Origin: Methanoregulaceae archaeon
Lineage (GTDB): Bacteria; Armatimonadota; Fimbriimonadia; Fimbriimonadales; Fimbriimonadaceae
DNA: 64,000 bases
NCBI GenBank assembly: GCA_020850325.1
Contig: JADZEW010000028.1
Span: 1 to 64,000, forward strand
Reading direction: 5' to 3'
This document shows, one piece after another, positions 9,146 through 60,303 of the stretch (its first letter is position 1; every line of letters starts with the position of its first letter). A program made the position numbers and the translations under genes. The notes under the pieces are model-generated. The model was not told the DNA's origin and made no database searches. It saw only the letters and a list, made by a program, of their open reading frames with translations.

Positions 9146-9425
9146 CTTGTGTTCAGTTTTGAACCCGGATCGGCGAGTACCGGGACGGGACTGTTTTCAT
9201 CATTTTGGCGCTTCGGCCTTGTCAGAACGGGCGCAAACAGTGTATTCTCGGTTCCATAGACGGCGCAACAACGTCTTGAACGGATTTCAACCTGGCAATG
9301 TTGCGGGATTTGTCCGCTTTTTCATGAAGGATCGGTGAATGGCGGGCAAGTTGAAGGGATTTGTGTAGTACAACGTACAAGAGTCAGCTAACCAGGTTGA
9401 GTGCAGTATGGGGGAGAGTTTCATC
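9146..9425. other. Divergent intergenic region of the polysaccharide cluster
   Basis: This stretch of about 280 bp between the divergent GT4 gene and the sugar transferase must hold promoters for both directions. I see a short palindrome GTACAACGTAC near 9368-9378, but no convincing -35/-10 pair and no gene. Confidence 0.4.
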
Positions 9426-10139
9426 ATGATCACGTCGCGGCTGAATGATGCCGTCGCAAGTGAGCCGGAGGAGGTTGGGGCCGTCGCGTATCTAGACGCA
9501 ATCCCTGCAACTCCGCCTCGCGTCGAGGTACGGAGAGTTCCGTACGCATTCGCCAAGCGAATGCTCGACGTTGTCTTTTCCGCGGTCTTTCTGGCCATCT
9601 TCGCCGTGCCGCTGATTCTGATTGCTCTGTTGGTGAAGCTCACAAGCCACGGTCCGGCTTTCTACGTGTCTGAGCGGGTCGGCCTCGGCGGCAAGCGCTT
9701 CAAGTTTTACAAGTTCCGGACCATGCGGATCGACGCCGACGAACGGCTTAGGGATTTGCTTCAGCATAACGAGAAGGACGGTCCGATCTTCAAGATGGAG
9801 TCCGATCCGCGGGTCACCCCGATTGGCGCCTTCCTCCGCAAGTTCAGCCTGGACGAGATGCCGCAGATGATCCACGTGCTCACCGGCAAGATGACGCTGG
9901 TGGGTCCCCGTCCGCCTCTGCCTCGAGAGGTGAGTTTTTACTCGGAGGACGAGTGGACGCGATTGTCGGTCAAGCCGGGCCTGACGTGCTACTGGCAAAT
10001 CCAGGGCCGCAGCGACCTCGACTTCGAGACGTGGATGGAGCTCGACCGCAAGTACATCGATGACATGTCGTTCTGGACAGACCTGAAGATCCTCGCGAAG
10101 ACACCGGTCGCCGTTATCAGCGGCCGAGGCGCTTACTGA
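9426..10139 (+). CDS. Undecaprenyl-phosphate sugar phosphotransferase (initiating enzyme)
   Basis: Transfers a sugar-1-phosphate to undecaprenyl phosphate at the inner membrane, starting repeat-unit assembly. A single N-terminal membrane segment ([19 protein letters not shown]) precedes the catalytic domain. That domain has the family hallmarks: [43 protein letters not shown] and [13 protein letters not shown]. It lacks the extra membrane helices of WbaP/WcaJ-type proteins, so it is the short PglC/ExoY-like form (about 237 residues). I prefer ATG 9426 because GGGGGAG lies about 9 nt upstream; an ATG at 9408 is also in frame. Confidence 0.93.
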
Positions 10140-10533: not shown

Positions 10534-10634
10534 CGCTTGATGGAACGTTACCCCAACAACCTCGCAAAAATACGGATGGGAATCACGTAAATGGGGAAAA
10601 GTCGGGGAACTCTGGCAGAATTGCTGGATCAGAC

Positions 10635-27782: not shown

Positions 27783-28412
27783 TTAATCCAGTTTCGCCGT
27801 GTCCATATACTCGCCCACAAAAGCGAGCAGCTCCTCTTCCTCCGCACCGGGGTGCAGACCGATGAAGCGGTACATGTTGCCCTCTTGCGGCTTTGCGGTC
27901 AGCACCTCGCCGAAGAAGATCGCGCGCAGCAACTCTGACTGCGTGGCGAAGATCGTTTCGTTGTGGCGGAAGAGGTAGGCCGACGGCATCTCTTGGTTGC
28001 TGCCGCGTTTGCGAATGACGAGAGCATTCACCGGGATCTCGCCCAGCGTCTTCGTTTTTACCGTCGTGATTCGCTGGCGGACGATCTCCCAGTCCTGGGC
28101 GCGGAAACACCCGGCCGGGTCGTGGAAGGACTCGCCTCGATCGCTGTTCACGACCACCGTGTCAATCTCGCGAACACCATCGGTCATGATACGGCACACG
28201 ATGCCTGATGCCTTCAGGTCCGGGATATCCATGATGTATGACTCGTCTGGACTCTCCGTACCCGGGCGCATCTCCAGAGACCCCACCGACCGGGGCGTGT
28301 TCTCGAGCAGCCACTCCTTCGTGCGGATCGTCGACGTGCCACCGCCGCGGGCGGTGACTGCCACGCCGATGCCGAGCAAGATGCAGGCGAGGAGATAGGC
28401 GCGAAACTTCAT
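27783..28412 (-). CDS. epsI: Exosortase-associated protein EpsI
   Basis: Partner protein of exosortase, 209 residues, with one N-terminal membrane anchor (AYLLACILLGIGVAVTA) and a periplasmic EpsI/DUF3485 domain. The domain contains TPRSVGSLEMRPG and SFHDPAGCFRAQDWEIV, matching the family's H-x-P-x-x-C-x-x-x-x-G/D-W block. I place the start at ATG 28412, which overlaps the exosortase stop by 4 bp; the frame extends upstream but only within the exosortase gene. EpsI is needed for exosortase-linked polysaccharide systems, though its biochemical role is not settled. Confidence 0.88.
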   Translation of the reverse strand: MKFRAYLLACILLGIGVAVTARGGGTSTIRTKEWLLENTPRSVGSLEMRPGTESPDESYIMDIPDLKASGIVCRIMTDGVREIDTVVVNSDRGESFHDPAGCFRAQDWEIVRQRITTVKTKTLGEIPVNALVIRKRGSNQEMPSAYLFRHNETIFATQSELLRAIFFGEVLTAKPQEGNMYRFIGLHPGAEEEELLAFVGEYMDTAKLD

Positions 28413-29317
28413 ACTTTCCACCCGAGAATCTTGGTGACCTTCATCAGAATCAGGAAGCTCACCACCAGGCTGATGTAGCCGCTGTAGTCGTGAAATGCGT
28501 GGCCAGCCTCGCTCCCGTACTGGTTGCCGACGATGCCGATGAGCGTGATACGCAGCGTGTTGATGAGCACGCAGAGGGGAAGCGAGATGGCGAAGAGCAG
28601 CAGGTTCTTCCACCACTCGAGGTGTGCAACCAACACGAAGAAGGTTACGATCGCCGCCACCGCCAAAACCAGGCGCAACCCGCTGCACGCCACGCCTACG
28701 TCGACCGTGAAGTTGTTCAGGTAGATCAGCGTCAGGTCCTGCCGGAACGGGTTCATGCCCAGCATGTCGAAGAACTGGTACGCGCCGATGGCGCTGATCT
28801 TCTGGAGCGGGGCCGTGTACTTATCGATCACGTTGTCCCAGAGAGGCAACGCGAAGAGCAAATAGAACGACGGCGCGGCGAGTCGCTTGAGCCCTCCCCA
28901 GCCGAGGATGAAGAGGCTGGCAGAAAGGCAAGTGGCGATGAGAAGAAGCGAAAGCAAAATGCGGGTGCTGTTGCCAGCGGCCACCCACGTGACCCAGCAG
29001 CAACCAAGGAGGGGCAGAATCGCCCACCAGGGCCCCGGCTTGGCCTCGGCGCGGAGCTTGTCCCACCGATCCCAGACGATGAGCGCGGCGCACAACGGAA
29101 CCGCCACGCCATGGGCGTAGTAGGTCTCGTCGCCGAACCACATCTCGGGCAAACGACGCATGAGTGGCCAAAAGGCAGCGATGAGCCCCGCGACCACGGC
29201 AATGACCGGCGCCATGCTGCGCCAATCAAAAGGTGGGGTGGGTTCCTTCGCCATATCGACGCCACCAGGCGGCGTCTGGGCAGGACTGAGGACTTCGGTT
29301 ACTCCCATTGAAATCAA
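28409..29317 (-). CDS. xrt: Exosortase (EpsH family)
   Basis: Multi-span inner-membrane cysteine transpeptidase that cleaves PEP-CTERM tags and hands proteins to the cell surface. It has 302 residues and about eight hydrophobic segments. The expected catalytic residues are present: Cys211 in VGVACSGLR, Arg256 in INTLRITLIG and His276 in GHAFHDYSGY. The nine PEP-CTERM genes from 33999 to 42448 are its obvious substrates. Co-transcription with epsI and position beside the polysaccharide cluster fit the known link between exosortase and exopolysaccharide. An in-frame ATG at 29308 is an alternative start. Confidence 0.94.
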   Translation of the reverse strand: MISMGVTEVLSPAQTPPGGVDMAKEPTPPFDWRSMAPVIAVVAGLIAAFWPLMRRLPEMWFGDETYYAHGVAVPLCAALIVWDRWDKLRAEAKPGPWWAILPLLGCCWVTWVAAGNSTRILLSLLLIATCLSASLFILGWGGLKRLAAPSFYLLFALPLWDNVIDKYTAPLQKISAIGAYQFFDMLGMNPFRQDLTLIYLNNFTVDVGVACSGLRLVLAVAAIVTFFVLVAHLEWWKNLLLFAISLPLCVLINTLRITLIGIVGNQYGSEAGHAFHDYSGYISLVVSFLILMKVTKILGWKV

Positions 29318-33998: not shown

Positions 33999-34607
33999 TT
34001 ACGCGCTGGCTTTCAGTCGGCGACGACCGTATGCCGCAACCGCGGCCAAGCCGAGCCCCATGGTCATCGGCTCGGGCACGGTCCCTGGCGTGCCTAATCG
34101 GACATTGTCCACGAGCCAGTAGTGTTCCGCTGTCCCATCGTTGATGAACTCCAGGCGGTCGAGTGCGCCTGCGAAGCCAGACATCGACGCGAACTGGGCC
34201 CCCAGGTTCATCGATGAACTACCAACAAGGACGTTGTTAAGATAGCCTCGTACCGTCAAGGTCGAGGAAGCGTAGGCCCAACTTGAGTTGTTCGCCGCCC
34301 AAAATGCGGCACTCAGCCCGTCAAACGTGAATAGGGTGTTGTTGGCGGCAGCGATGGTCGCCTGCCCGGTGTCGTTGAAGAGTGCCTTTGCTGCCGACGG
34401 AAACGCAATGTTGTTTCCATAGTTGGTGTTGTACCAAGCGTTATCCAAGACCGCGGCATTAGCGCTCCACGTGAATCCCTGGTAGTTCGCAGGTAACGAA
34501 ACATAGCTCGACGTAACCACATCGTCAAAGTTCAAAACCAGTGCCTGAGAACTGGAGGCCGTGGCAAGAAGCCCAAGCACGATCAACCCTCGATCAATAC
34601 TTTTCAT
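33999..34607 (-). CDS. PEP-CTERM protein 1
   Basis: Exported protein of 202 residues: a signal peptide (LIVLGLLATASSSQA), a mature region beginning NFDDVVTSSYVSLPANYQG, and a C-terminal exosortase tag. The tag has VPEPMTMGLGLAAVAA followed by GRRRLKA. The mature part matches the general plan of PEP-CTERM proteins with an N-x-F-D/E-D start; the ligand is unknown. ATG 34607 has GGAGGAG 7 nt upstream. It is the only member of the array on the minus strand and is divergent from the next. Confidence 0.9.
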   Translation of the reverse strand: MKSIDRGLIVLGLLATASSSQALVLNFDDVVTSSYVSLPANYQGFTWSANAAVLDNAWYNTNYGNNIAFPSAAKALFNDTGQATIAAANNTLFTFDGLSAAFWAANNSSWAYASSTLTVRGYLNNVLVGSSSMNLGAQFASMSGFAGALDRLEFINDGTAEHYWLVDNVRLGTPGTVPEPMTMGLGLAAVAAYGRRRLKASA

Positions 34608-34681
34608 GTTCAATCTCCTCCCTGGTGCCCCATGGGCCCCACAGTCCTGACATGACTTCCGTCAAGCAGTCCGATCACAAC

Positions 34682-34732
34682 ATTGTACGAAACAAAACTG
34701 TCATACCAAGGAATAAGGTGTAAAACCTGTTA
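34682..34732 (-). promoter_or_regulatory. Promoter of PEP-CTERM protein 1 with shared motif (43-bp class)
   Basis: On the minus strand TAACAGGTTTT (position equivalent to first C at 34730) precedes TACAAT (34687-34682) by 43 bp. The motif deviates at two positions from CCGGGTTTT. There is no -35 hexamer. Confidence 0.5.
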
Positions 34733-34846
34733 GTAATGCTAGGGGCCGTCTCCGACCTGTCCTACTGCGAGCGAAGAAAAGTAGCACTTCCGAAACTGTA
34801 GGTGGCCACCAGTGGGAACTGGCTCTGGTCAGTGAGACTGCACTTG

Positions 34847-34897
34847 TGCCGGGTTTTGACGCACAACAAGGTCTGTACCTCAGGACTGTTGTAGAGT
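34847..34897 (+). promoter_or_regulatory. Promoter of PEP-CTERM protein 2 with shared motif (43-bp class)
   Basis: TGCCGGGTTTT (34847-34857) precedes TAGAGT (34892-34897). First C to first T is 43 bp. No -35 hexamer is visible. Confidence 0.55.
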
Positions 34898-34977
34898 ATA
34901 GGGATCGCGGTACGGCTGCTTCCGAGAGCATGGCTTTTTGGGGGAGAGGAGTCAACGCGACTTTGGAGGAATCATAA

Positions 34978-35718
34978 ATGAATCATAAGATCTTCTTGGG
35001 GGTTGTGCTGGCCACGACCGCAGCAGCAGCAGAAGCTCAGTTTGTCGTAGCCGATACCACGCTGACGAGCCAGAACGCCGGCGCAAATCGATTTCGGAAC
35101 TTCGGCAACGCGGGCGGAGGCGATAACTATCTCGGTGTCAACGGTCTCGGCGATTCGAACAACCGGGTCGAGGACTCTTCTATTCACTGGACCAAACCGT
35201 ACTCGCACGCATTCTCGTTTGTGTACGATGTCGCTAACGACCGGTTGATCAGCGAAGTTACCTATCTCGCTGCCGTGCCTGACGCACCCATTACGTCAAC
35301 GTTGGTTTACAGCAACTTCTTGAGCAACGTCGCGAACCGAGTGCCCTCGGTGGCCAACCTCGATTGGAATGCGCTCCAGATTTCGCTCACGATGGCCTCC
35401 GACGGCAACAGCACGCCGGCTCAGTTCAATCTTCGGAATGTGAAGTTCAACGGGAGTAACCTCAACGTCACGGACTTCTTCGGCGTGCTCGGCCAGACCA
35501 AGGACTGGACGATCCAAGGCTACAACTTCCGAAACGGGTTCAGCCTGACCGGGACGATCGAGCTCGACGGTGCCTTTGGATCCGGCGGAGATTTGAACGC
35601 CATCAACTTGGGATTCGGCAACATCCCTGGAGCCGTCCCCGAGCCGTTCACGATGGGCCTCGGTATCGCCGCCGCGGGCGCGTTCGTCCGCCGTCGTTTG
35701 AAGTCGAAGAACCTCTAA
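34978..35718 (+). CDS. PEP-CTERM protein 2
   Basis: Exported protein of 246 residues: signal peptide (LGVVLATTAAAAEAQF), Asn/Gly-rich mature part (NAGANRFRNFGNAGGGDNY) and tag VPEPFTMGLGIAAAGAF then VRRRLKS. The mature region resembles PEP-CTERM proteins with a jelly-roll-like domain, but I cannot name it. GGAGG lies 8 nt before the ATG. A terminator follows at 35740. Confidence 0.9.
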   Translation: MNHKIFLGVVLATTAAAAEAQFVVADTTLTSQNAGANRFRNFGNAGGGDNYLGVNGLGDSNNRVEDSSIHWTKPYSHAFSFVYDVANDRLISEVTYLAAVPDAPITSTLVYSNFLSNVANRVPSVANLDWNALQISLTMASDGNSTPAQFNLRNVKFNGSNLNVTDFFGVLGQTKDWTIQGYNFRNGFSLTGTIELDGAFGSGGDLNAINLGFGNIPGAVPEPFTMGLGIAAAGAFVRRRLKSKNL

Positions 35719-35739
35719 GAGCACGAGCATCATGCTAAT

Positions 35740-35774
35740 AGCCCGGACAGAGTCGTCCGGGCTCTCGCATTTTT
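35740..35774 (+). terminator. Rho-independent terminator of PEP-CTERM protein 2
   Basis: A 9-bp stem, AGCCCGGAC/GTCCGGGCT, encloses a 6-nt loop and is followed by CTCGCATTTTT. The T-run touches the control motif of the next gene. Confidence 0.75.
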
Positions 35775-35824
35775 GCCGGGTTGTCGTCTCTAAATATGCA
35801 TATGTAGGGCGGAAGCTGTATAGT
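35774..35824 (+). promoter_or_regulatory. Promoter of PEP-CTERM protein 3 with shared motif (43-bp class)
   Basis: TGCCGGGTTG (35774-35783) precedes TATAGT (35819-35824). First C (35776) to first T is 43 bp. Confidence 0.6.
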
Positions 35825-35875
35825 AGTGGAGAGGGATGGGGCGCGGGTTAAACCGCCTCGCCCTGTGGGAGACAC

Positions 35876-36580
35876 ATGAACCGACTTGCCGTTGCCGCTA
35901 TCGCGATCGCATTCGCTGCTCAAGCCTCAGCTTTCAACTTGATTGCAGATGGCGGATTTGAAATGGGCGACTCGTCGTCACCCCAGTTTACTGGCGGCCC
36001 CTGGAGCACGCAGTACACCTATGCCACAAACAACAATGCGAACGCAAACGACCTAGGGTCGATCTGGCATGAAGGGAATCTGAGGGTCATGCAGCAGGCG
36101 AACAACGGTACGACCGGCCACAGCTCATGGAATCCTGTTACCGCGAACGAGGGAAGCTTCTTCTTGGCCGTGAACGGCGCTACGCAAACGAACCCCTCGC
36201 CGTTCGTCCTGACCCAGGTGTTCGCCAACAATGGTGCCGCCGCGCTGAGCATCTCGCTTGCCTCGGTCAATCTGTATGCACCAGGCGGGCTCGCTGGGGC
36301 GACCGTGCTCGAAGTGTTCCTTGACGGGGTCTCTCTGGGGACCACGAATACTCTGGCTGACAATGTCTGGCGGACCGCCTCTTTCACAGGGAACGTGCTG
36401 AGTGGCGGACCGAACTCGACCCTCAGGATTGTGGCTAACACCTCCCAGGCGAGCGGAAACGACTTTGGGCTTGACAATATTCAGGTGACCCAAGTCGTCC
36501 CCGAGCCCTTCACGATGGCCCTGGGGATCGCGGCTGCGGGGGCGTTTGTGCGCCGCCGGCTGAAAGCGAAGACCGCCTGA
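35876..36580 (+). CDS. PEP-CTERM protein 3 (NGGFE type)
   Basis: Exported protein of 234 residues: signal peptide (MNRLAVAAIAIAFAAQASA), then FNLIADGGFEMGD as in DUF642-like/'choice-of-anchor' carbohydrate-binding-type domains, and the tag VPEPFTMALGIAAAGAF then VRRRLKA. It is a paralogue of the next gene: signal peptides, NGGFE start, 5' untranslated region and terminator are alike. GGGAG lies 5 nt before the ATG. Confidence 0.92.
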   Translation: MNRLAVAAIAIAFAAQASAFNLIADGGFEMGDSSSPQFTGGPWSTQYTYATNNNANANDLGSIWHEGNLRVMQQANNGTTGHSSWNPVTANEGSFFLAVNGATQTNPSPFVLTQVFANNGAAALSISLASVNLYAPGGLAGATVLEVFLDGVSLGTTNTLADNVWRTASFTGNVLSGGPNSTLRIVANTSQASGNDFGLDNIQVTQVVPEPFTMALGIAAAGAFVRRRLKAKTA

Positions 36581-36600
36581 TTATCAACCATCGACCACTC

Positions 36601-36638
36601 GAGAGCCCGGACAAGATCGTCCGGGCTCTCGTATTTTT
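36601..36638 (+). terminator. Rho-independent terminator of PEP-CTERM protein 3
   Basis: A perfect 12-bp stem, GAGAGCCCGGAC/GTCCGGGCTCTC, encloses a 6-nt loop and is followed by GTATTTTT. Confidence 0.85.
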
Positions 36639-36689
36639 GCCGGGTTGTGGGTTGGCCGGGTACGCAAATCAGGACAATCGTTGTATAGT
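36638..36689 (+). promoter_or_regulatory. Promoter of PEP-CTERM protein 4 with shared motif (44 bp)
   Basis: TTGCCGGGTTG precedes TATAGT (36684-36689). First C (36640) to first T is 44 bp. A second GGCCGGGTA occurs at 36654-36662. Confidence 0.6.
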
Positions 36690-36742
36690 ATGGGGAGACG
36701 GGAGCGAGTGCGGATTCAACCGCCTCGCCCTGTGGGAGACCC

Positions 36743-37393
36743 ATGAATCGACTCTTCGTTGCCGCCATCGCGATTTCCATCGCTGCTCCAGCCTCTGCAC
36801 TGAACCTGATTCAGAACGGCGGGTTCGAGCAACACCAGATTGCCAACAACACCTGGGCGGCGGTGAATGCGACGACGAACCCCACGTTCCTACCGAGCTG
36901 GACCTACTTCGGCGCGTCCAACCACAACGTGGCACTCACCGGAGCGGGCTACTTGGGACAATCGTCACAGCAGGTCGACGTCAGCGGCGGCTCCGATACG
37001 GTGCCGAGCGGGATCTTCCAGTCCATCACAACCGTGGTGGGCCAACTATATCAGCTCACCTTCCAGGTGTTCACCGGCGGTACATCTCTCACCGGTGGCG
37101 TGAACATGAACGTGTACTCGGGGGGGATCAATGGCGCCTCCCTTCTCGGGGCTTCGAATCTTCAAGGGAACGCGGTTAATGGTCCAGGTGGGTTGAAGAC
37201 TTTTACGTACGGCTTCGTCGCGACGGGGACCACGACGACCGTCGCGTTCTCGATGTTTTCCAGGCCGGTGAGCCAGATCGACAATATCTCGGTCCAGGCC
37301 GTGCCCGAACCCATCACCATGGGCCTCGGCTTTGCCGCCGCCGGGCTGTTCGCCCGTCGACGAATGAAGGGTGCCGCTCGCCTCGCGGTTTAG
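36743..37393 (+). CDS. PEP-CTERM protein 4 (NGGFE type)
   Basis: Exported protein of 216 residues: signal peptide (MNRLFVAAIAISIAAPASA), mature start LNLIQNGGFEQHQ, then a beta-rich domain with YQLTFQVFTGG. The tag is VPEPITMGLGFAAAGLF, RRRMK and the extra end GAARLAV, shared with PEP-CTERM proteins 5 and 6. The domain is of the DUF642-like carbohydrate-binding type. Its leader is nearly identical to that of the preceding gene. Confidence 0.92.
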   Translation: MNRLFVAAIAISIAAPASALNLIQNGGFEQHQIANNTWAAVNATTNPTFLPSWTYFGASNHNVALTGAGYLGQSSQQVDVSGGSDTVPSGIFQSITTVVGQLYQLTFQVFTGGTSLTGGVNMNVYSGGINGASLLGASNLQGNAVNGPGGLKTFTYGFVATGTTTTVAFSMFSRPVSQIDNISVQAVPEPITMGLGFAAAGLFARRRMKGAARLAV

Positions 37394-37460
37394 GTAGGTG
37401 GCTCATAGGTTCAGAGCGGGCACGAGTCCATCCCGCTCCCACAAGTTTCTCAACCATGTT

Positions 37461-37492
37461 GTAGGTTCCGGATGCATCGTGCCGGAACCTAC
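37461..37492. repeat. REP-like hairpin beside the RAYT gene
   Basis: GTAGGTTCCGG (37461-37471) and CCGGAACCTAC (37482-37492) form a perfect 11-bp stem with a 10-nt loop, 34 bp before the RAYT start. It begins with GTAG, the tetranucleotide recognised next to REP hairpins by RAYT proteins, and has no T-tract. Confidence 0.5.
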
Positions 37493-37526
37493 GGCCGATG
37501 ATTAGGTCCAAAATGTGAGCTGTCAC

Positions 37527-38000
37527 ATGGGCCCTGGCCGATTGCCCCGGCACCTGTACCAAGGCGAGCGCACTTGCGCTTTCACCGCGTGCACACGCGA
37601 GCGATCTGTTGTCTTTGATCGCGAAGAGCATGTAGAGCCGTGCGTCGAGTACCTGCGCCGATCTGCCCATGAAAGCGGCTGCCTCGTTCCGATCTACTGC
37701 TTCATGCCAGACCACGTGCACATCATGTTGAAGGGACAGGACCAGTCGTCGGATGCGCTCGCGGCCATGTCGAAGTTCAAGCTGCTGAGTGGCCTTTGGA
37801 TGTGCCGGAAGAAACTCTCCGGGTGGCAGAAGAACTTCTATGATCATGGGCTCCGCGGTCACGATGACTGGCGCAACCACGTGCGCTACATCGCGAACAA
37901 TCCCGTGCGTCGAGGACTCGCACGTGAAGTGCTCGCCTATCCTTACACGGGGTCCATCGGCTGTGAACTTCTGGAGATTCTCATGCCGTGGGGTACGTAG
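37527..38000 (+). CDS. REP-associated tyrosine transposase (RAYT, Y1_Tnp)
   Basis: HUH-family single-strand nuclease related to IS200/IS605 transposases, 157 residues. Landmarks are the HUH motif in CFMPDHVHIML (His63, His65) and the catalytic Tyr in RYIANNPVRRG (Tyr121), with the family's NFYDHGLRGHDDWRNH block before it. RAYTs mobilise REP palindromes, not themselves. It interrupts the PEP-CTERM array. Imperfect direct repeats (AGAGCGGGCAC at 37413 and AGAGCAGGCAC at 38003) flank it. A GTG at 37515 is an alternative start. Confidence 0.9.
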   Translation: MGPGRLPRHLYQGERTCAFTACTRERSVVFDREEHVEPCVEYLRRSAHESGCLVPIYCFMPDHVHIMLKGQDQSSDALAAMSKFKLLSGLWMCRKKLSGWQKNFYDHGLRGHDDWRNHVRYIANNPVRRGLAREVLAYPYTGSIGCELLEILMPWGT

Positions 38001-38051
38001 TCTAGAGCAGGCACACGTCCCCCCGGCCCAACTTGAACTTCCAAGTATTTC

Positions 38052-38113
38052 TGCCGGGTTGCTCAAGAATTCCTGCTTCCTACCCGAAAGTAGGGGGAGT
38101 ATCGTGTTACACT
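38052..38113 (+). promoter_or_regulatory. Promoter of PEP-CTERM protein 5 with shared motif (54-bp class)
   Basis: TGCCGGGTTG (38052-38061) precedes TACACT (38108-38113). First C (38054) to first T is 54 bp. A competing TATCGT lies at 38100, so the -10 is less certain here. Confidence 0.4.
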
Positions 38114-38154
38114 TGCGTAGTCGCCACGACGGTGGCTGGGTTTAGGGATTTGGG

Positions 38155-38829
38155 ATGAGAAATCTTCGGTTTGCAGTATCTGCCTTGGTTCTTTCGTCGC
38201 TAGGCGCCTCGGCGACCGCGATGGTGTTCAACAGCACAGCGGTTGGGTTGCTCGGAGGAGCCGCCGATTCTAACTGGACGGTCAGCGGTCCTTCGGTCAC
38301 GGGGACTCAACAGGCGATCACGCTGAACTATGTGGGCAATCCGTTCCCTTACAATGCCTACGCCGCGAACGATGCGTTCTCGCAGTGGATCAGCTTTGCC
38401 GCCGATGGCGGAAACAGTCTGCCAGCTGCTTCGACCCAGGGCATCTATACTTACACCACAACCGTTGACTTCACCGGATCCACGGGTGTCCTGACCGGCC
38501 ATGTCTGGTCGGACAATGCGATCGTCGACGTCTTTCTGGGCAATGTGAGCCTCGGGCTTGTTCCATTGGCCACGACATACGCCGCCGGTAGCGTCGACTG
38601 GTTCAAGAAGGGAAGCGCCTTCACCCTAAGCGGATCGGGAGTACAGACGGTTTCGTTCCAGGTCAGAAACGGTTTTCCCGGTTCCGGTGGTTCGAACGAC
38701 CCCACGGCTTTCCGCGCCCGGCTGAGCATGCAGGCGGTTCCTGAGCCCTTTACGATGGGCCTCGGCCTCGCCGCCGCAGGCCTGTTTGCCCGTCGACGAC
38801 TGAAGTCCGCCGCCCGCCTCGCGGTCTAA
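38155..38829 (+). CDS. PEP-CTERM protein 5
   Basis: Exported protein of 224 residues: signal peptide (LRFAVSALVLSSLGASATA), a mature domain with SNWTVSGPSVTGTQQAITL and TGHVWSDNAIVDVFLGN, then the tag VPEPFTMGLGLAAAGLF, RRRLK and SAARLAV. The mature part resembles the jelly-roll domain of other PEP-CTERM proteins; ligand unknown. A terminator follows. Confidence 0.92.
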   Translation: MRNLRFAVSALVLSSLGASATAMVFNSTAVGLLGGAADSNWTVSGPSVTGTQQAITLNYVGNPFPYNAYAANDAFSQWISFAADGGNSLPAASTQGIYTYTTTVDFTGSTGVLTGHVWSDNAIVDVFLGNVSLGLVPLATTYAAGSVDWFKKGSAFTLSGSGVQTVSFQVRNGFPGSGGSNDPTAFRARLSMQAVPEPFTMGLGLAAAGLFARRRLKSAARLAV

Positions 38830-38848
38830 CGTTCACTTCATCAGTCTC

Positions 38849-38880
38849 AGAGTCCCGGTCGGTTCGGCCGGGACTCTTGC
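38849..38880 (+). terminator. Terminator of PEP-CTERM protein 5
   Basis: A 10-bp stem, AGAGTCCCGG/CCGGGACTCT, encloses a 9-nt loop and is followed by a weak T-tract (TGCATTT). Confidence 0.65.
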
Positions 38881-38938
38881 ATTTGGGCGGGCGACGCGAC
38901 CACGTCCAGACGCACCGCACCAAAAATACTGTCAGTCT

Positions 38939-38988
38939 TACGGGGTTTCGCGTGCGGGTCACCCGATCCAGCCAAAACGGTGTAGAAT
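38939..38988 (+). promoter_or_regulatory. Promoter of PEP-CTERM protein 6 with shared motif (42 bp)
   Basis: TACGGGGTTTC (one change from CCGGG) precedes TAGAAT (38983-38988) by 42 bp, first base to first base. Confidence 0.45.
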
Positions 38989-39019
38989 GGCGTATCGCTC
39001 GAGGGAGAGCCGGGTACTC

Positions 39020-39649
39020 ATGAAAAGAATTGTTGGTGTGATTGGAGTGGTTACGGTGGCAAGTGCCGCTAATGCCGCATTTTTCCAGAATGGTAGCTTC
39101 GAAGTTGGGCCCAATCCTGGGTCGTTTGCAACCAAGAGTGCGGGCGACACGTCGATCACCGGTTGGGTGGTCGGTGGAAACAGCATCGATTACATCGGCT
39201 CTTACTGGCAAGCTTCTCACGGCAGCCGGAGCATCGACCTGTCGGGCAACAACAACGGCAGTATCGCGCAGACCTTCGACACGGTCATCGGTACGACTTA
39301 CCGGCTGACGTTCGACCTGTCGGGCAACCCGGACCGACGACCTACGAATCCGGCCGAGTACATCGTCAACGTCTCCGCGGGCTCGCTGAACAGCAACTTC
39401 TCGTACAACGACCTCACGAATACGAAGGCGAACATGAAGTGGAAGAGCTTCACGACATCGTTCGTGGCTACGAGCACCTCGACGACGCTCTCGTTTGTCG
39501 CGATTCACCCAACGGGCGCCTTCGGCCCCGCGCTCGACAACGTGGCGGTACAGGCAGTTCCGGAACCCTTCACGATGGGCCTCGGCCTCGCTGCCGCTGG
39601 GGCGTTTGTCCGGCGTCGCATGAAGGCAGCCCCTCGTCTCGCGGTTTAG
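39020..39649 (+). CDS. PEP-CTERM protein 6 (NGSFE type)
   Basis: Exported protein of 209 residues. Signal peptide (RIVGVIGVVTVASAANA), mature start FFQNGSFEVG, then ITGWVVGGNSIDYIGSYW, GSRSIDLSGNNNGSIAQTF and YRLTFDLSGNPD. This is a clear DUF642/'choice-of-anchor C' carbohydrate-binding-like domain. The tag VPEPFTMGLGLAAAGAF is followed by VRRRMKAAPRLAV. I use ATG 39020; an ATG at 38987 overlaps the -10 region. Confidence 0.93.
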   Translation: MKRIVGVIGVVTVASAANAAFFQNGSFEVGPNPGSFATKSAGDTSITGWVVGGNSIDYIGSYWQASHGSRSIDLSGNNNGSIAQTFDTVIGTTYRLTFDLSGNPDRRPTNPAEYIVNVSAGSLNSNFSYNDLTNTKANMKWKSFTTSFVATSTSTTLSFVAIHPTGAFGPALDNVAVQAVPEPFTMGLGLAAAGAFVRRRMKAAPRLAV

Positions 39650-39663
39650 GCGTCAGTTCTCGA

Positions 39664-39705
39664 ACGAGGGCCACGGCATGATTCATTGCCGGGGCCCTCG
39701 TCTTT
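39664..39705 (+). terminator. Terminator of PEP-CTERM protein 6
   Basis: An outer 9-bp stem, ACGAGGGCC/GGCCCTCGT, continues inward with GGCA/TGCC. CTTTTG follows. Confidence 0.8.
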
Positions 39706-39826
39706 TGTACAGGCATGTCCTAAAGTGTCGGTGCCCGATTTGGATCGAATGGCTAGCCCGCGATTCAAGGTGAGGAGCGGGCGCCCGAGCTACGAGATCC
39801 TCTTTGCAGTTTCTTATCCGCATATG

Positions 39827-39888
39827 TACCGGGTTTTCGCCGATTAGCCTCAAAACGCGAGTCATGGTGCGAAAAGTGCCGTCATACT
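39827..39888 (+). promoter_or_regulatory. Promoter of PEP-CTERM protein 7 with shared motif (54-bp class)
   Basis: TACCGGGTTTTCG (39827-39839) precedes CATACT (39883-39888). First C (39829) to the -10 is 54 bp. Confidence 0.5.
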
Positions 39889-39962
39889 ATCGAGGTTGCC
39901 CAAGGCTCTCCGGAGGCTGGGCGATTGTGACAGGGTAGTACCCGATAAGGGGAGAGGATTAT

Positions 39963-40706
39963 ATGAAGCGATTTTTCTTAATAGCAGGACTGGCGGCGGT
40001 GGCTTCGGCCTCGCAGGCGACCGGGACCTTTGTTGCTTATTGGCAATACGGCCTGAACGGCCACTCGAGCGCGGTGAAAGTCAAGCTCGGGGCCACGAAC
40101 TACAACGTCAGCGCCGGTGAGTTTACGGCTCGAAGGTTGAAGGACGCGGCCGGAGGTACCAGTTTGGACCTGCCGATGTCTACGACCAACCCGAACTACG
40201 ACTTCATCGCGAAGACGTTCTGCGTCGAGTTGACCGAGTCGATCAACGTGAACACCAACCACACGCACAACGTGGTGGCGCCGCTCCTCGGTGCGACTAC
40301 TCAGAACGGCGGCGTGACGTTTGATGCAACGCGGGTTACCGCACTCTCGAGACTTTGGGCAAATGCCTCAATCACGGACAGCATCACCGCCGCGGCCTTT
40401 CAGCTCGTGCAGTGGGAGATCACCTTCGATGGCGGCTCGCTTGACCTGACGGGTGGAACCTTCCGCAACAATGGCACGGTCAACGCTGCGATCATCACCC
40501 AGGCCAACACCTGGCTTGGCCAGCTCGGGTCGTGGACCGCTCAGCGTAACCTGGTTCTACTGTCCCGAGCGGGCATCCAGGACCAGATCACCGCGCTCGA
40601 CGGCTTGCCGCCGACCAACGTGGTTCCTGAGCCTTTCACCATGGGCTTGGGCGTTGCCGCGGCCGGAGCGTTTGTTCGACGCCGGCTGAAGGCCCGAACG
40701 GTCTAA
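39963..40706 (+). CDS. PEP-CTERM protein 7 (paralogue of protein 8)
   Basis: Exported protein of 247 residues: signal peptide (RFFLIAGLAAVASASQA), a mature domain with FIAKTFCVELTESIN and AAAFQLVQWEITFDGGSLDL, and the tag VPEPFTMGLGVAAAGAF followed by VRRRLKA. The FC-V/A-E-L ... AAAFQL-x-QWEI pattern is shared with the next gene and recalls the Cys-Gln thioester-type domains of surface proteins: the Cys of FCVEL and Gln of AFQLVQW are conserved in both. A covalent-bond role is inference. Confidence 0.92.
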   Translation: MKRFFLIAGLAAVASASQATGTFVAYWQYGLNGHSSAVKVKLGATNYNVSAGEFTARRLKDAAGGTSLDLPMSTTNPNYDFIAKTFCVELTESINVNTNHTHNVVAPLLGATTQNGGVTFDATRVTALSRLWANASITDSITAAAFQLVQWEITFDGGSLDLTGGTFRNNGTVNAAIITQANTWLGQLGSWTAQRNLVLLSRAGIQDQITALDGLPPTNVVPEPFTMGLGVAAAGAFVRRRLKARTV

Positions 40707-40728
40707 GGTACCGACCCACAATCCGGAG

Positions 40729-40756
40729 CCCCGAGTTCACAAACTCGGGGTTTCTT
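40729..40756 (+). terminator. Terminator of PEP-CTERM protein 7
   Basis: A 9-bp stem, CCCCGAGTT/AACTCGGGG, encloses a 4-nt loop and is followed by TTTCTT. Confidence 0.75.
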
Positions 40757-40775
40757 GGTTTCAACCAAGCATATT

Positions 40776-40835
40776 TGCCGGATCGTACAAAATTCTTCCT
40801 TTTCGTGTCCACATTTTCCTGCGCGTGTGTATAAT
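40776..40835 (+). promoter_or_regulatory. Promoter of PEP-CTERM protein 8 with shared motif (52 bp)
   Basis: TTGCCGGATCG precedes a perfect TATAAT (40830-40835). First C (40778) to first T is 52 bp. The motif's TT part has changed here. Confidence 0.45.
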
Positions 40836-40909
40836 AGGACAAGCGTTCCCATGGGGAGGGCGTAACATCTCGGATTCTGAGGAGGATCTGGGGAGTGGGA
40901 GATAACTTG

Positions 40910-41671
40910 ATGAAACGATTTGCAATCATTGCGGGCCTCGCAGTTCTGAGTACTAGCGCCCTGGCCCAGGATTTCATAGGCAGTTGGAACACAGGTGGTT
41001 TTAACGGCGGCGTCAATACGAGCATGTACAACGGCTCTGCCGTGCGGTTCACAGCTTACAAAACGGGCGGCACGTTGCCTGGCGGATTGCCGGCCGAAGC
41101 GGTGAGTCATTTGAACACGGCCAACCCTGGGTTCTTCTCGTTCTGCGCAGAGCTTGGAGAGACCATCGGCGGAGGCACGCAGACTCACGAGCGCGTCGAG
41201 ATGATCGGCGTTGGGACGCAGACTTGGGCGGGCGGCATTCAGCAAGTCACGTTCAACCTCAGTCAGGTCAACAAGCTGAGCAGGTTGTGGTACGGTGCGC
41301 TCAGCGGAGCCTTTGGCGGTTGGAGCAATGACCTCGCAGCTGCTTTCCAGCTGGCACAGTGGGAGATCTTGTTTGACGGCGGTACCACGAGTTTGACGGC
41401 AGGTAACTTCTCGTTGACGAGCGGCGCTGGCAACAGTCGCTACACGGCTACGCAAACCTTGGTCAACTACGCGAACACGCTTGGCGTCGGGGCCAACCTG
41501 ATCCTCTTGTCTGATGCACTCAACAGTGGACAGCCCCTGATCCAGGACCAGATCACCGGCTATATCTCGAGCAATCCGCCGAACACGGTTCCCGAGCCCT
41601 TCACGATGGGCCTCGGTGCCGCAGCCGCGGGACTGTTCGTTCGACGCCGACTGAAGGCGAAGGCTGCTTAA
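40910..41671 (+). CDS. PEP-CTERM protein 8 (paralogue of protein 7)
   Basis: Exported protein of 253 residues: signal peptide (RFAIIAGLAVLSTSALA), mature part with FFSFCAELGETIGGG and AAAFQLAQWEILFDGGTTSL, and the tag VPEPFTMGLGAAAAGLF followed by VRRRLKA. It is homologous to the preceding protein over most of its length. ATG 40910 has GGGAG about 9 nt upstream; a GTG at 40895 is in frame. Confidence 0.92.
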   Translation: MKRFAIIAGLAVLSTSALAQDFIGSWNTGGFNGGVNTSMYNGSAVRFTAYKTGGTLPGGLPAEAVSHLNTANPGFFSFCAELGETIGGGTQTHERVEMIGVGTQTWAGGIQQVTFNLSQVNKLSRLWYGALSGAFGGWSNDLAAAFQLAQWEILFDGGTTSLTAGNFSLTSGAGNSRYTATQTLVNYANTLGVGANLILLSDALNSGQPLIQDQITGYISSNPPNTVPEPFTMGLGAAAAGLFVRRRLKAKAA

Positions 41672-41692
41672 GCCAGTTCATCGCCTCTCCCG

Positions 41693-41730
41693 AAGACCCG
41701 ACTGCCTGATACGCAGTCGGGTCTTTTTTC
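41693..41730 (+). terminator. Terminator of PEP-CTERM protein 8
   Basis: A perfect 13-bp stem, AAGACCCGACTGC/GCAGTCGGGTCTT, encloses a 7-nt loop and continues into a T-run. Confidence 0.92.
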
Positions 41731-41751
41731 GTCTTTCCTTGCTGGTATTCG

Positions 41752-41813
41752 TGCCGGGATTTCGCCAGAACTGCGCGGGAGTCACGTGCAAGCGACAGTT
41801 GCTGTGATATCAT
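41752..41813 (+). promoter_or_regulatory. Promoter of PEP-CTERM protein 9 with shared motif (54-bp class)
   Basis: TGCCGGGATTTCG (41752 onward, wait-free match to CCGGG) precedes TATCAT (41808-41813). First C (41754) to first T is 54 bp. Confidence 0.5.
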
Positions 41814-41863: not shown

Positions 41864-42448
41864 ATGAAAGCAAACTTTGTGTCCCGCGGGTATGTGTCGG
41901 TTGCCTTGATGACAGCTCTGGTTACTGGTGCAAGTGCACAGAACTGGAGCTCCTTCTGGCAGGCCGAGACCATCAGCGGTGTCTCGATGTCATATAACGT
42001 CGTCACCAAGGAGCTCACGGCGTCGATGTCACCCGGAGCCAAGGTGAAGATCGCCGGTGTCGAGCGTGAAATCGAGAATTTCTTCGGCTTCTATGTACTC
42101 CACGCGACGGGTGGAGGTGGCCAAGGGCCCTTGGGGGCAACCAATGACACCAGTCCCACCGGATGGAACTTCTGGGACGATAATCAGTATCTCGCGGGTT
42201 GGAGTGACAACAACAAGACGAATCTGGGCTCGCCGAAGACGGGCAAGTTCGCGACTCTGGCGTTCCCAAGCAACAACTGGTGGGGGATGCACGTGACCTA
42301 CAAAGGCACGAACGGGATGACTCAGTACATCCGCTGGAACGGCGGAACGCCTCCTTCGAACGTTGTTCCTGAGCCCTTCACCATGGGACTCGGCATCGCG
42401 GCCGCGGGTGCTTTCGTTCGTCGTCGCGTCAGGGCCAAGAAGAACTAG
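41864..42448 (+). CDS. PEP-CTERM protein 9
   Basis: Exported protein of 194 residues: signal peptide (SVALMTALVTGASAQ), a tryptophan-rich mature part (NWSSFWQAETISG, GWNFWDDNQYLAGWSDNN) and the tag VPEPFTMGLGIAAAGAF, then VRRRVRA. No family is recognised for the mature domain. ATG 41864 has GGGAG about 8 nt upstream. A terminator follows. Confidence 0.9.
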   Translation: MKANFVSRGYVSVALMTALVTGASAQNWSSFWQAETISGVSMSYNVVTKELTASMSPGAKVKIAGVEREIENFFGFYVLHATGGGGQGPLGATNDTSPTGWNFWDDNQYLAGWSDNNKTNLGSPKTGKFATLAFPSNNWWGMHVTYKGTNGMTQYIRWNGGTPPSNVVPEPFTMGLGIAAAGAFVRRRVRAKKN

Positions 42449-56923: not shown

Positions 56924-56945
56924 CTAGAACTTGAAGCCGAGGCTG
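56924..56945. repeat. Direct repeat copy 2 (beta-barrel gene 3' end)
   Basis: The partner of 53942-53963, at 21 of 22 positions. It is the 3' end of the intact barrel gene. Confidence 0.8.
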
Positions 56946-57682
56946 ACCGACATCCAGAGGTTGGTGCGCCGCGGTTGCCCGGCGAGCAGACCTCGGTCGA
57001 AGAGCGTCGAATAGTGCAGCGCGGGAGCTAAATTGAGTCGATCTCCTAGTCCAATCGACGTCGAGGCCGTCAGTTGTAGGTCGGCGAACCCGGCTTTCGA
57101 GCTCCCGAAGTAGAAGTTGTTGGATCGCGCATCCCCGTAGCTCAGTTCCGCGTTGAGTTCCACTTCGAGCAAACCGGCTAGTTGGCTCGATAAGGCATGG
57201 GTGACCCCCAACGTGACATAGGTTCCGGAGTAGGAGTTGTTGCCGGTGTACAGGTTCAAGTAGGGAGAGCCCCACACGTCGCCAAGTTCGACCGTCGCGA
57301 ACCACTCCTGATAGCGTCCTTCGCCCGTTCCCGGAAACTGGTAGTCGACGATGCCCAAGCTCCACTCAGCGGTTCCCACCGTGCGCGTGTACTCGAGGGT
57401 GAAATCGAGTTCGGTCACGCGGCCGCGTGGAGTCGACGTGTAGTTGGGCAGATTCCAGTTCGTCGGCTCGAAATTGCCCCACAGTCCAACGGAGATGGGG
57501 CCACGGGAAACCGTAACCCCCGGCTGGATCACCCAATCATTGACCAGGTTGATGCCGCGCCAGACGTACTTCGAAGCAACGGTCAACTCCGCCTCGATCT
57601 CGAACGGCTTCTGGACCTGCGCGGAAGCAAGCGCGCTCAGGAACACGACCGACGACCACGCGACGCGCAACAAGGGTGCCAT
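56924..57682 (-). CDS. Outer-membrane beta-barrel protein
   Basis: Protein of 252 residues with a signal peptide (VAWSSVVFLSALASAQ). The mature part starts FEIEAELTVASKYVWRGINL, as in barrels whose first strand has S-x-Y-x-W/F-R-G. It alternates hydrophobic and polar residues and ends in SLGFKF, with the terminal Phe needed for barrel assembly. It resembles the TIGR02001-type family of unknown function. Its presence shows a diderm envelope. Confidence 0.85.
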   Translation of the reverse strand: MAPLLRVAWSSVVFLSALASAQVQKPFEIEAELTVASKYVWRGINLVNDWVIQPGVTVSRGPISVGLWGNFEPTNWNLPNYTSTPRGRVTELDFTLEYTRTVGTAEWSLGIVDYQFPGTGEGRYQEWFATVELGDVWGSPYLNLYTGNNSYSGTYVTLGVTHALSSQLAGLLEVELNAELSYGDARSNNFYFGSSKAGFADLQLTASTSIGLGDRLNLAPALHYSTLFDRGLLAGQPRRTNLWMSVSLGFKF

Positions 57683-57801
57683 GCCCTAATCTTCGGCAAA
57701 TTTGCGGGGATCTTCAAATGCAGGCTTTATTTAGCCTTTGATGCGGGAGAGTGGCGCCGATATGGAACAAGGAGCTTCGGGAGAGGTTGGGACTTGGCGG
57801 G

Positions 57802-60303
57802 ATGAAGCTTAGAAAGCGACTGATCATCGTATCGGGCCTCTGTCTGGCCATGGGCGCCTGGGCGATATCGAGTGTTGCGCTCGACTCGTCGGCTCGTGGC
57901 TTTGCCGAGATTGAATACGACCGTGCCCAGAACGACGTGGCGCGCATCAACGAGGCGTTTCGCAACGCGATCACCGCTCTCCACACCAAGTCGGCCGACT
58001 GGGCGAATTGGGACGACACCTACAACTTCATCGGAGACCGCAACCGCGAATACGTCGAGTCCAACCTCGACATTTCCTCGCTAGAGGGAATTCGGATCGA
58101 CCTGATCATGATTCTGAGCCCCCAGGCGGAGTCAATCATTGCGGTGGGGGTTCCTGATGGCAAGGGGGCGGTTCCCGACAGCCAGGAGATCTTGCGGCAG
58201 CTTCGTACGGGCAAGAAGCTCGATCCCACCGTGGGACATTCGGGCTATGTCATTGTTCATGGGCAGCCGACTCTTGTCTCGGTCCGACCGGTCTTCCGCA
58301 CCGGGGCGGAGACAGGCAGCCGCGGCTGGATTCTCTTCGCGCAGCGGCTCGACGCCCGGTTGCAGGGAGACTTGCGGCGCCTCACCCGCTACCCCATCAA
58401 GTTTCGGGTAGCGGACGATGCCGTGGCAGCGAGTGGTTCTAGTCGCGAGAACCGCTCTCTAGTCAAGGTTCTGAGCGAGGACGAACTCCTGGGCACCTCG
58501 GTCGCCTACGACCTGTTCGGCCGCCCCTCCCTACAGCTCGACACTGTTTTCAACCGCCGAGTGTACGCCTACGGCAAAGTGGTCGGCAAGAACACGGTTG
58601 CCCAGGTGCTGGCTGTGGCCGCGTTCTTTGCCCTGGTGATCATGTTCATCTTTGAGCGCTTCGTACTGCGCCGGTTGCGAAAGCTCCACGAGCAGGTCGC
58701 CAGCATCGGTGCGGAAGTCGACGGCGCGCGGGTCAAGCTCGATGGTCAGGATGAACTCGCTTCCCTTGCCAATCAGGTGAACACGATGCTGTCGCGAATC
58801 GAAGACGGCTCCTCCGCCCTCCGCGAGAGTGAAGAGCAACTACGATCGCACAACGAGAATCTCGAGCAAATGGTGGCCGAGCGCACCGCCGAAATCGAGC
58901 GCAGCGCGGCGGCCCTGCGAGAGAGTGAGGAGCGGCTGCGGCTCCAGAATGAGAATCTTGAGCAGCTCGTCGATTCGAGAACCCGCGAGATCGAGCACCA
59001 AGCTTTCCACGACAAGCTGACGGGTTTGCCCAACCGAGCCCTCTTCATGGACCGGCTCTCCTGCGCGTTGACCAAGTCGGGGCGGTCGGGAATGAGCACG
59101 GCGGTCATGTTCATCGACCTTGACAACTTCAAGCTGATCAACGACAGCCTGGGCCACGACAAGGGTGATCTGCTGCTGATCACGGTTGCAGACCGGCTGA
59201 GCGAGTGCGTCCGCGCCGGCGATACCGTGGCTCGATTGGGGGGCGATGAATTCACCCTGCTGTTGGAAGGCGTGGAATCGACCGCGCGGGCCGAAGAAGT
59301 CGCCGATCGCATCCTGGCCACCTTGCGCAAACCGATCCCCGTCGGCACGAGCGAAATCTTCACGGGAGCGAGCATCGGTCTGGCGATTACGCACGACGGC
59401 CACGGCTCGGCTCAAGATTTGCTTAAGCACGCCGACGTGGCCATGTACCGCGCCAAGGCGACGGGCAAGTCGACCTATGTCGTGTTCGATGAGCACATGA
59501 ACGCCCATGCCGTCGAGCGGCTCGAACTCGAGACCGCGCTCCGCAAGGCGATCGACCAAGGCACGATGAGCCTGGCCTACCAGCCGATCGTCGACCTTGC
59601 CAGTGGACAGATCATCGGCGTGGAGACCCTGTCCCGTTGGGCGCATCCCACCCGAGGCGACATCTCTCCCGCGCAGTTCATCCCGATCGCGGAGGACACC
59701 GGACTCATCGTCACGTTGGGCAACTGGGTTCTCGAAGAGGCATGCCGCCAAGCGACCGAGTGGATCGAGCTGATGTCAGATCGGCCCTTTACGATCAGTG
59801 TCAACGTTTCGGGGCGCCAGTTGAAGCGCGATGACATTGTCGAGCGGGTCAGCGCCGCGCTCGAGAAGTCAGGATTGCCTGCCGAGAGATTGAAGCTCGA
59901 ACTGACGGAGACCGTCCTGCTCGACGACGGCGAGGAGATCGCCATCAAGCTGCGGTCGTTGAAGCAACTGGGGGTCAAGCTGGCCCTAGATGACTTCGGC
60001 ACCGGCTACTCTTCCCTGTCGACTTTGCGCTCCTTCCCCATCGACACACTCAAGGTCGATCAAGCGTTTATTCGGATGCTCGAGGATGAATCCGAGGCCC
60101 TGGCCATCGTCGAAGCGATCACGTCCTTGGCGAGGACGATGCGCATGGATGTCACTGCCGAGGGAGTCGAGACGGCATCCCAAGAGCGGCTGCTCAAGCA
60201 ACTCGGCGTGAGCTGTGGCCAGGGCTACTTCTTCGCCCGTCCGATGCCTGCTGCCGAGCTTCGCGCGCTGATCAGCACCGGTCCTCGTTCCCTCGCGGCC
60301 TGA
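57802..60303 (+). CDS. CHASE4-GGDEF-EAL cyclic-di-GMP protein
   Basis: Inner-membrane protein of 833 residues for cyclic-di-GMP turnover. It has an N-terminal membrane helix, a periplasmic CHASE4 domain (SADWANWDDTYNF), a second helix (VLAVAAFFALVIMFIF) and a long coiled coil. GGDEF is intact at 480-484, with an inhibitory RAGD five residues before it. The EAL domain reads ETLSRW (from 608) instead of EALxRW but keeps LDDFGTGYSSL, KVDQAFI, AEGVETASQ and QGYFFARPM. Both activities are possible. It probably tunes biofilm or polysaccharide output. A GTG at 57751 is an alternative start. Confidence 0.93.
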   Translation: MKLRKRLIIVSGLCLAMGAWAISSVALDSSARGFAEIEYDRAQNDVARINEAFRNAITALHTKSADWANWDDTYNFIGDRNREYVESNLDISSLEGIRIDLIMILSPQAESIIAVGVPDGKGAVPDSQEILRQLRTGKKLDPTVGHSGYVIVHGQPTLVSVRPVFRTGAETGSRGWILFAQRLDARLQGDLRRLTRYPIKFRVADDAVAASGSSRENRSLVKVLSEDELLGTSVAYDLFGRPSLQLDTVFNRRVYAYGKVVGKNTVAQVLAVAAFFALVIMFIFERFVLRRLRKLHEQVASIGAEVDGARVKLDGQDELASLANQVNTMLSRIEDGSSALRESEEQLRSHNENLEQMVAERTAEIERSAAALRESEERLRLQNENLEQLVDSRTREIEHQAFHDKLTGLPNRALFMDRLSCALTKSGRSGMSTAVMFIDLDNFKLINDSLGHDKGDLLLITVADRLSECVRAGDTVARLGGDEFTLLLEGVESTARAEEVADRILATLRKPIPVGTSEIFTGASIGLAITHDGHGSAQDLLKHADVAMYRAKATGKSTYVVFDEHMNAHAVERLELETALRKAIDQGTMSLAYQPIVDLASGQIIGVETLSRWAHPTRGDISPAQFIPIAEDTGLIVTLGNWVLEEACRQATEWIELMSDRPFTISVNVSGRQLKRDDIVERVSAALEKSGLPAERLKLELTETVLLDDGEEIAIKLRSLKQLGVKLALDDFGTGYSSLSTLRSFPIDTLKVDQAFIRMLEDESEALAIVEAITSLARTMRMDVTAEGVETASQERLLKQLGVSCGQGYFFARPMPAAELRALISTGPRSLAA

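Follow-up and report, generated by a model that had tools for sequence, protein, structure and literature searches.

Which regulator switches on the PEP-CTERM surface proteins of bacteria outside the Proteobacteria? The PEP-CTERM control element reported by Haft et al. in 2006 was found only in Proteobacteria, and further motifs and regulators were left to be discovered elsewhere (PMC1569441). Our literature search found no later PEP-CTERM control motif outside that phylum. The question is raised here by nine PEP-CTERM genes arrayed in a window of 64,000 nucleotides, the whole stretch of DNA that was analysed, which starts at the first base of a contig of 149.6 kb in a draft genome of 3.52 Mb. 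Close relatives of one regulator of this genome come from Armatimonadota, mostly Fimbriimonadales, and the organism itself is therefore most likely a member of this group. The nine array proteins have tails of the VPEPFTMGLG...RRRLK type, and the genome contains more than 70 PEP-CTERM genes. An exosortase of the EpsH family (28409-29317, minus strand; PF09721, 1.4e-50) is expected to be the sorting enzyme for the array proteins; its gene was checked for the operator described below, and no site of at least 12 bits was found.

A conserved palindrome upstream of PEP-CTERM genes

Form of the element: A sequence-only reading of the array had noted a TGCCGGGTTTT-like block upstream of each gene. 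This block turns out to be no more than the right arm of a palindrome of 20-22 bp, approximately AACCYSGYA-N4-TRCSRGGTT, whose left arm lies ~10 bp upstream of the right arm, as in CTCGCA-TTTT-TGCCGG at 35764-35779. A one-sided element of 9-11 bp is ruled out by the conservation of the left arm. Scanning with a matrix built from the array sites revealed full palindromes such as ACCTCGCAATGTTGCGAGGTT at PEP-CTERM genes elsewhere, and a palindromic expectation-maximisation search was therefore run on the 250-bp upstream regions of the 64 PEP-CTERM genes outside the array. The search arrived from many seeds at the de novo motif naaCCYSGYAAWWTTRCSRGGttn, which is used by 77% of the 64 genes and has a log-likelihood ratio of 216, against 46-48 in shuffled sequence. 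Matrices were used because exact-pattern counts are uninformative (52 versus 30 in the reversed control); the pattern CYNGYA-N4-TRCNRG has fewer matches than its own reversed control.

Enrichment and conservation: The palindrome is real, enriched upstream of PEP-CTERM genes, placed at fixed spacings, and conserved across the order. When the matrix from the 64 outside genes is applied to the held-out array regions, eight of nine reach at least 12 bits, against 28 of 549 other genes (P = 4e-10), and the array sites score 13 to 18.5 bits with the exception of gene 34978 (9.6 bits). A site of at least 12 bits is present within 200 bp of 47 of the 73 PEP-CTERM genes and of 28 of the 549 comparison genes, all of them genes with intergenic DNA upstream. 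When the matrix is instead trained on the family's other genera alone, the counts become 39 of 73 and 21 of 549 (p = 1e-26, odds ratio 29), and the enrichment test is conservative, since some background stretches were chosen for holding pattern matches. The sequence-only reading had offered to stand or fall on the motif being commoner upstream of PEP-CTERM genes than elsewhere; at an odds ratio of about 29, it is not refuted. Roughly one-third of the PEP-CTERM genes of the genome have no site, and two of these genes look sigma54-like. Separate de novo searches recovered the motif in the family's other genera (log-likelihood ratio 182 versus 41) and in the order's other families (114 versus 40), and four further families of the phylum have single sites of 15.8-24.6 bits ahead of PEP-CTERM genes.

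Operators and promoters of the array

Site by site: The nine motif and nine -10 coordinates given by the earlier reading are correct as written, each assigned to one of the nine PEP-CTERM genes, as are its distances from the first motif base to the -10 (43, 43, 43, 44, 42 and 54, 54, 52, 54). We describe each promoter below by how far the first -10 base lies from the centre of the palindrome. The only minus-strand gene (33999-34613) has its operator at 34723-34746 (13.9 bits by a matrix trained without this site) and a -10 TACAAT at 34687-34682, at a distance of 47; the remaining operators and -10 boxes are on the plus strand. Gene 34978-35718 has an operator with a weak left arm at 34833-34856, scoring only 9.6 bits, and TAGAGT at 34892, also at 47. 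The operator of gene 35876-36580 (CTCGCA-TTTT-TGCCGG, 35760-35783, 18.2 bits) overlaps the T-run of a terminator that precedes it and stands 47 from TATAGT at 35819. That of gene 36743-37393 (CTCGTA-TTTT-TGCCGG, 36624-36647, 18.5 bits), 48 from TATAGT at 36684, is a recent duplicate of it; the near-identical motifs at 35776 and 36640 are therefore not independent cases. A REP-associated tyrosine transposase gene (37515-38000) lies within the array, between the fourth and fifth PEP-CTERM genes. For gene 38155-38829, the operator at 38038-38061 (15.2 bits) is 58 from TACACT at 38108, with a weaker alternative -10 at a distance of 50. Gene 39020-39649 combines an operator at 38925-38948 (16.4 bits) with TAGAAT at 38983, a distance of 46. 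The last three genes have wider spacings: 58 for gene 39963-40706 (39813-39836, 15.4 bits; CATACT at 39883, with a better-scoring TACTAT at 60), 56 for gene 40910-41671 (40762-40785, 17.8 bits; TATAAT at 40830), and 58 for gene 41866-42448 (41738-41761, 13.4 bits; TATCAT at 41808).

Spacing classes: The two spacing classes proposed for the array fared differently across the genome. The 42-44 class, equivalent to a centre-to--10 distance of 46-48, is dominant, with 24 of 44 promoters of this genome (p = 6e-21) and 13 of 43 promoters of relatives (p = 4e-8), whereas the 52-54 class is prominent only in this array: the corresponding 56-58 distance, seen in three or four array genes, has p = 0.14 genome-wide and a borderline p = 0.05 in relatives. 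A class absent from the earlier reading has the centre 30-32 bp from the -10, so that the palindrome covers the -35 position, and accounts for eight of 44 own promoters and 11 of 43 in relatives. The proposal that a bound protein would face the same side of the DNA is only partly supported: the 47/58 pair fits one helical turn, but the 30-32 class lies 16 bp from 47; helical periodicity in relatives is weak once the main peak is removed. Likewise, the claim of no recognisable -35 is true of most promoters, although six of 27 main-class promoters have a weak -35 where ~6% would be expected; none was found in the 30-32 promoters.

Sigma factor: The array promoters have sigma70-type -10 boxes with the operator at fixed upstream distances. 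Sigma54 promoters, with their -24(GG)/-12(GC) elements, are ruled out at the nine array genes. A sigma54-like element occurs at only two other PEP-CTERM genes of the genome, neither with a palindrome above 13 bits. In relatives, near-perfect sigma54 elements of the TGGCACG-N4-TTGC type do occur at some PEP-CTERM genes (G017 L196-L203, G004 L143, G003 L138/L150, G014 L210-L215), and for three of these genes, two in G017 and one in G004, the palindrome is centred 29-31 bp upstream of the sigma54 element. The operator may thus also serve sigma54 promoters in relatives.

Other genes with the operator

Sites at genes other than PEP-CTERM genes were sought in 1.23 Mb of this genome. The best-scoring operator of the window (9288-9311, 21.3 bits) lies between a glycosyltransferase gene (7928-9145, minus strand) and an EPS priming sugar transferase gene (9408-10139, plus strand). 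A Wzz/Wzc-like chain-length and tyrosine-kinase gene (10728-12764) is preceded by two plus-strand operators, one of 18.3 bits at 10608-10631 and a weaker one of 13.2 bits at 10557-10580. A further operator (57689-57712, 16.3 bits) is located between a Gcw_chp porin gene (56924-57682, minus strand) and a CHASE4-HAMP-GGDEF-EAL gene (57751-60303, plus strand). Elsewhere, a flagellin gene has two overlapping palindromes ~100 and ~120 bp upstream (L098; C15:95416 and 95436), and strong sites precede an EAL-HDOD gene and genes for proteins with pilin-type N-termini (N_methyl). Two further palindromes, at flhA and at a CBS-GGDEF gene, lie inside or next to the gene; since they overlap coding sequence, they carry less weight. 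The palindromes beside GGDEF-EAL, EAL-HDOD, and CBS-GGDEF genes (window 57689-57712, C8:348744, and C18:101840) suggest that the regulon is linked to c-di-GMP. Only some of these additional sites have a -10 at the usual distance, and no transcription-factor gene with a strong operator was recognised among the matches at non-PEP-CTERM genes in the 1.23 Mb.

A candidate regulator

The genome encodes six GerE-domain regulators. The one that we propose as a candidate is a stand-alone GerE protein of 92 residues (C5:33974-34249) that matches PF00196 at 2e-20 and contains no cysteine; its closer solved relatives include GerE (1fse) and VpsT (3kln). Each of the 21 genomes of the order, and part of the phylum besides, has such an orthologue, 85-92 residues long and little but a DNA-binding domain. 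A second small GerE protein (C26:230322, 96 aa) was set aside as species-specific: it has no site of its own and is not conserved. Records titled Berkelbacteria or Patescibacteria contain an Armatimonadota-type GerE at 70-90% identity (L303, L333, L339, L340, L341), which reflects either mislabelled or mixed genomes or transfer.

The case for the candidate is circumstantial but consistent. First, the palindrome is found upstream of the stand-alone GerE gene in 16 of 74 species, versus 10 of 381 neighbouring genes (p = 8e-8), and the independent cases number fewer than 16 because several are from close relatives. These sites occupy varied positions, few of them with a clear -10 at the usual distance, and the GerE gene of this genome has only an 8.3-bit site. 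Second, outside the order, sites of about 12 bits or more occur at eight of 23 PEP-CTERM gene rows of GerE-positive genomes and at none of nine in three GerE-negative genomes, a marginal co-occurrence (one-sided p = 0.047) in a count where two loci were read twice and the threshold was picked after the scores were seen.

Proposed mechanism and alternatives

The palindromic block is very probably the operator of an activator. The enrichment (odds ratio about 29) and the fixed class I and class II distances favour the activator-dependent surface-protein regulon suggested by the earlier reading. A homodimeric activator would bind the palindrome at ~-59.5 (class I, the main placement), at -42.5 (class II, over the -35), and occasionally at ~-70.5, positions that assume transcription to begin 12 bp beyond the first base of the -10. 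Once bound, it would bring in sigma70-type RNA polymerase at promoters with a good -10 but, for the most part, no -35. EPS synthesis, flagellin, pilin-like genes, and some c-di-GMP enzymes would in this way be switched on alongside the PEP-CTERM surface proteins. Judged from its CY-N12-RG register, its class II centre, and the score of a las-type box (see below), and despite the poor fit of the lux box, the binder is probably a protein of the LuxR/GerE type, and we give the 92-residue protein itself an even chance. Taken whole, a palindromic activator operator of class I/II geometry, most likely bound by the stand-alone GerE, is the best explanation, which we favour by a little.

The most serious alternative keeps the operator and the activator logic and assigns them to another dimeric binder, a NarL-type response regulator, a GerE-PAS protein, or a member of the CRP/FNR family. 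Several longer GerE proteins and two above-cut-off members of the CRP family are encoded in the genome, a CRP-family gene (C30:5726) has a PEP-CTERM gene with a site of 17.8 bits nearby, and the main distance of -59.5 is near that of CRP class I. However, the CRP, FNR, NarL, and DosR consensus boxes fit poorly, scoring -14 to -23 bits with the matrix; the class II centre falls at -42.5/-43.5 rather than at -41.5; and no rival regulator gene has a strong operator of its own among the matches listed. We consider this assignment possible but clearly less likely than the stand-alone GerE.

A role of the palindrome as an operator for a repressor, or as a site for a nucleoid protein, is improbable: palindromes are typical of repressors and a few sites overlap coding starts, but in most genes the site is 46-48 bp upstream of the -10, too far for a simple block of polymerase, and the promoters mostly lack a -35 and so need an activator. 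Inherited similarity, through tandem duplication including upstream DNA or through a repeat spread by the REP-associated transposase inside the array, is true of the near-identical 35776/36640 pair and is refuted as a general explanation by palindromes with unrelated flanks, which occur at non-PEP-CTERM genes as well as at dozens of PEP-CTERM genes spread over other contigs and other families.

To return to the preferred reading, the palindrome shared by dozens of Armatimonadota surface-protein genes suggests that one activator, so far unrecognised, controls the surface coat. More tentatively, and at somewhat less than even probability, a phylum-wide regulon for the Armatimonadota surface coat, comprising PEP-CTERM, EPS, flagellin, and c-di-GMP enzyme genes, might be governed by the sensor-less 92-residue GerE and replace the PrsK/PrsR-sigma54 scheme of Proteobacteria. 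The mechanism would be of a known type; the operator is absent from the literature searched, and the candidate regulator is specific but putative. The analysis extends PEP-CTERM control elements to another phylum and supplies the consensus, the promoter geometry, the genes that share the control, and a candidate regulator by name, and coat switching in such bacteria becomes directly testable.

Comparison with known systems

PrsK/PrsR-sigma54: In the PEP-CTERM regulon of Proteobacteria, a 17-nt motif ending in TTTACA precedes the -24/-12 sigma54 element by an average of 63 nt (Haft 2006, PMC1569441; Xia 2023, PMC9850573). Both systems have one cis-element upstream of most PEP-CTERM genes and form a single regulon tied to EPS, but here the element is a palindrome 30-58 bp before a sigma70-type -10. 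PrsR (TIGR02915) exceeds the curated cut-off of 502.6 in none of the 21 genomes of the order (best 386.6 bits), which together with the sigma70-type -10 boxes of the array favours a regulon outside the PrsK/PrsR-sigma54 scheme, as the sequence-only reading had supposed. The nearest relative of PrsR in each of the 21 genomes is a single NtrC-like response regulator, which matches only as far as about position 375 of 445, and in the three of these that were read, the DNA-binding helix-turn-helix end is missing entirely. The NtrC-like relative in this genome is at C8:268160-269269; others are L267, L268, and L269.

CRP/FNR: The consensus of this family is TGTGA-N6-TCACA or TTGAT-N4-ATCAA. Against the matrix these sequences score -22.3 and -17.7 bits. 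CRP/FNR promoters resemble those described here in their placement classes at ~-42 and ~-60, with a third near -70, and differ in consensus and in a class II position that here is 1-2 bp off.

LuxR/GerE: The lux-box hallmark is CT-N12-AG (PMC4074388). Lux and las boxes share with the palindrome a 20-bp dyad, an outer AGGT, the same register (here CY-N12-RG), and a class II centre at ~-42.5. The V. fischeri lux box scores -7.0 bits because its inner bases differ, and a las-type box scores 10.6 bits, within the top 0.5% of random palindromes. Unlike in the lux and las systems, the main placement here is class I, and the candidate has no autoinducer-binding domain. PedR of Synechocystis binds RWWTRGGYNNYY and senses redox through Cys80 (PMC13421787), whereas the candidate is free of cysteine and its proposed motif differs. 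In overall build, the candidate resembles PedR and the GerE of Bacillus, which are likewise small and consist of little more than a LuxR-type DNA-binding domain.
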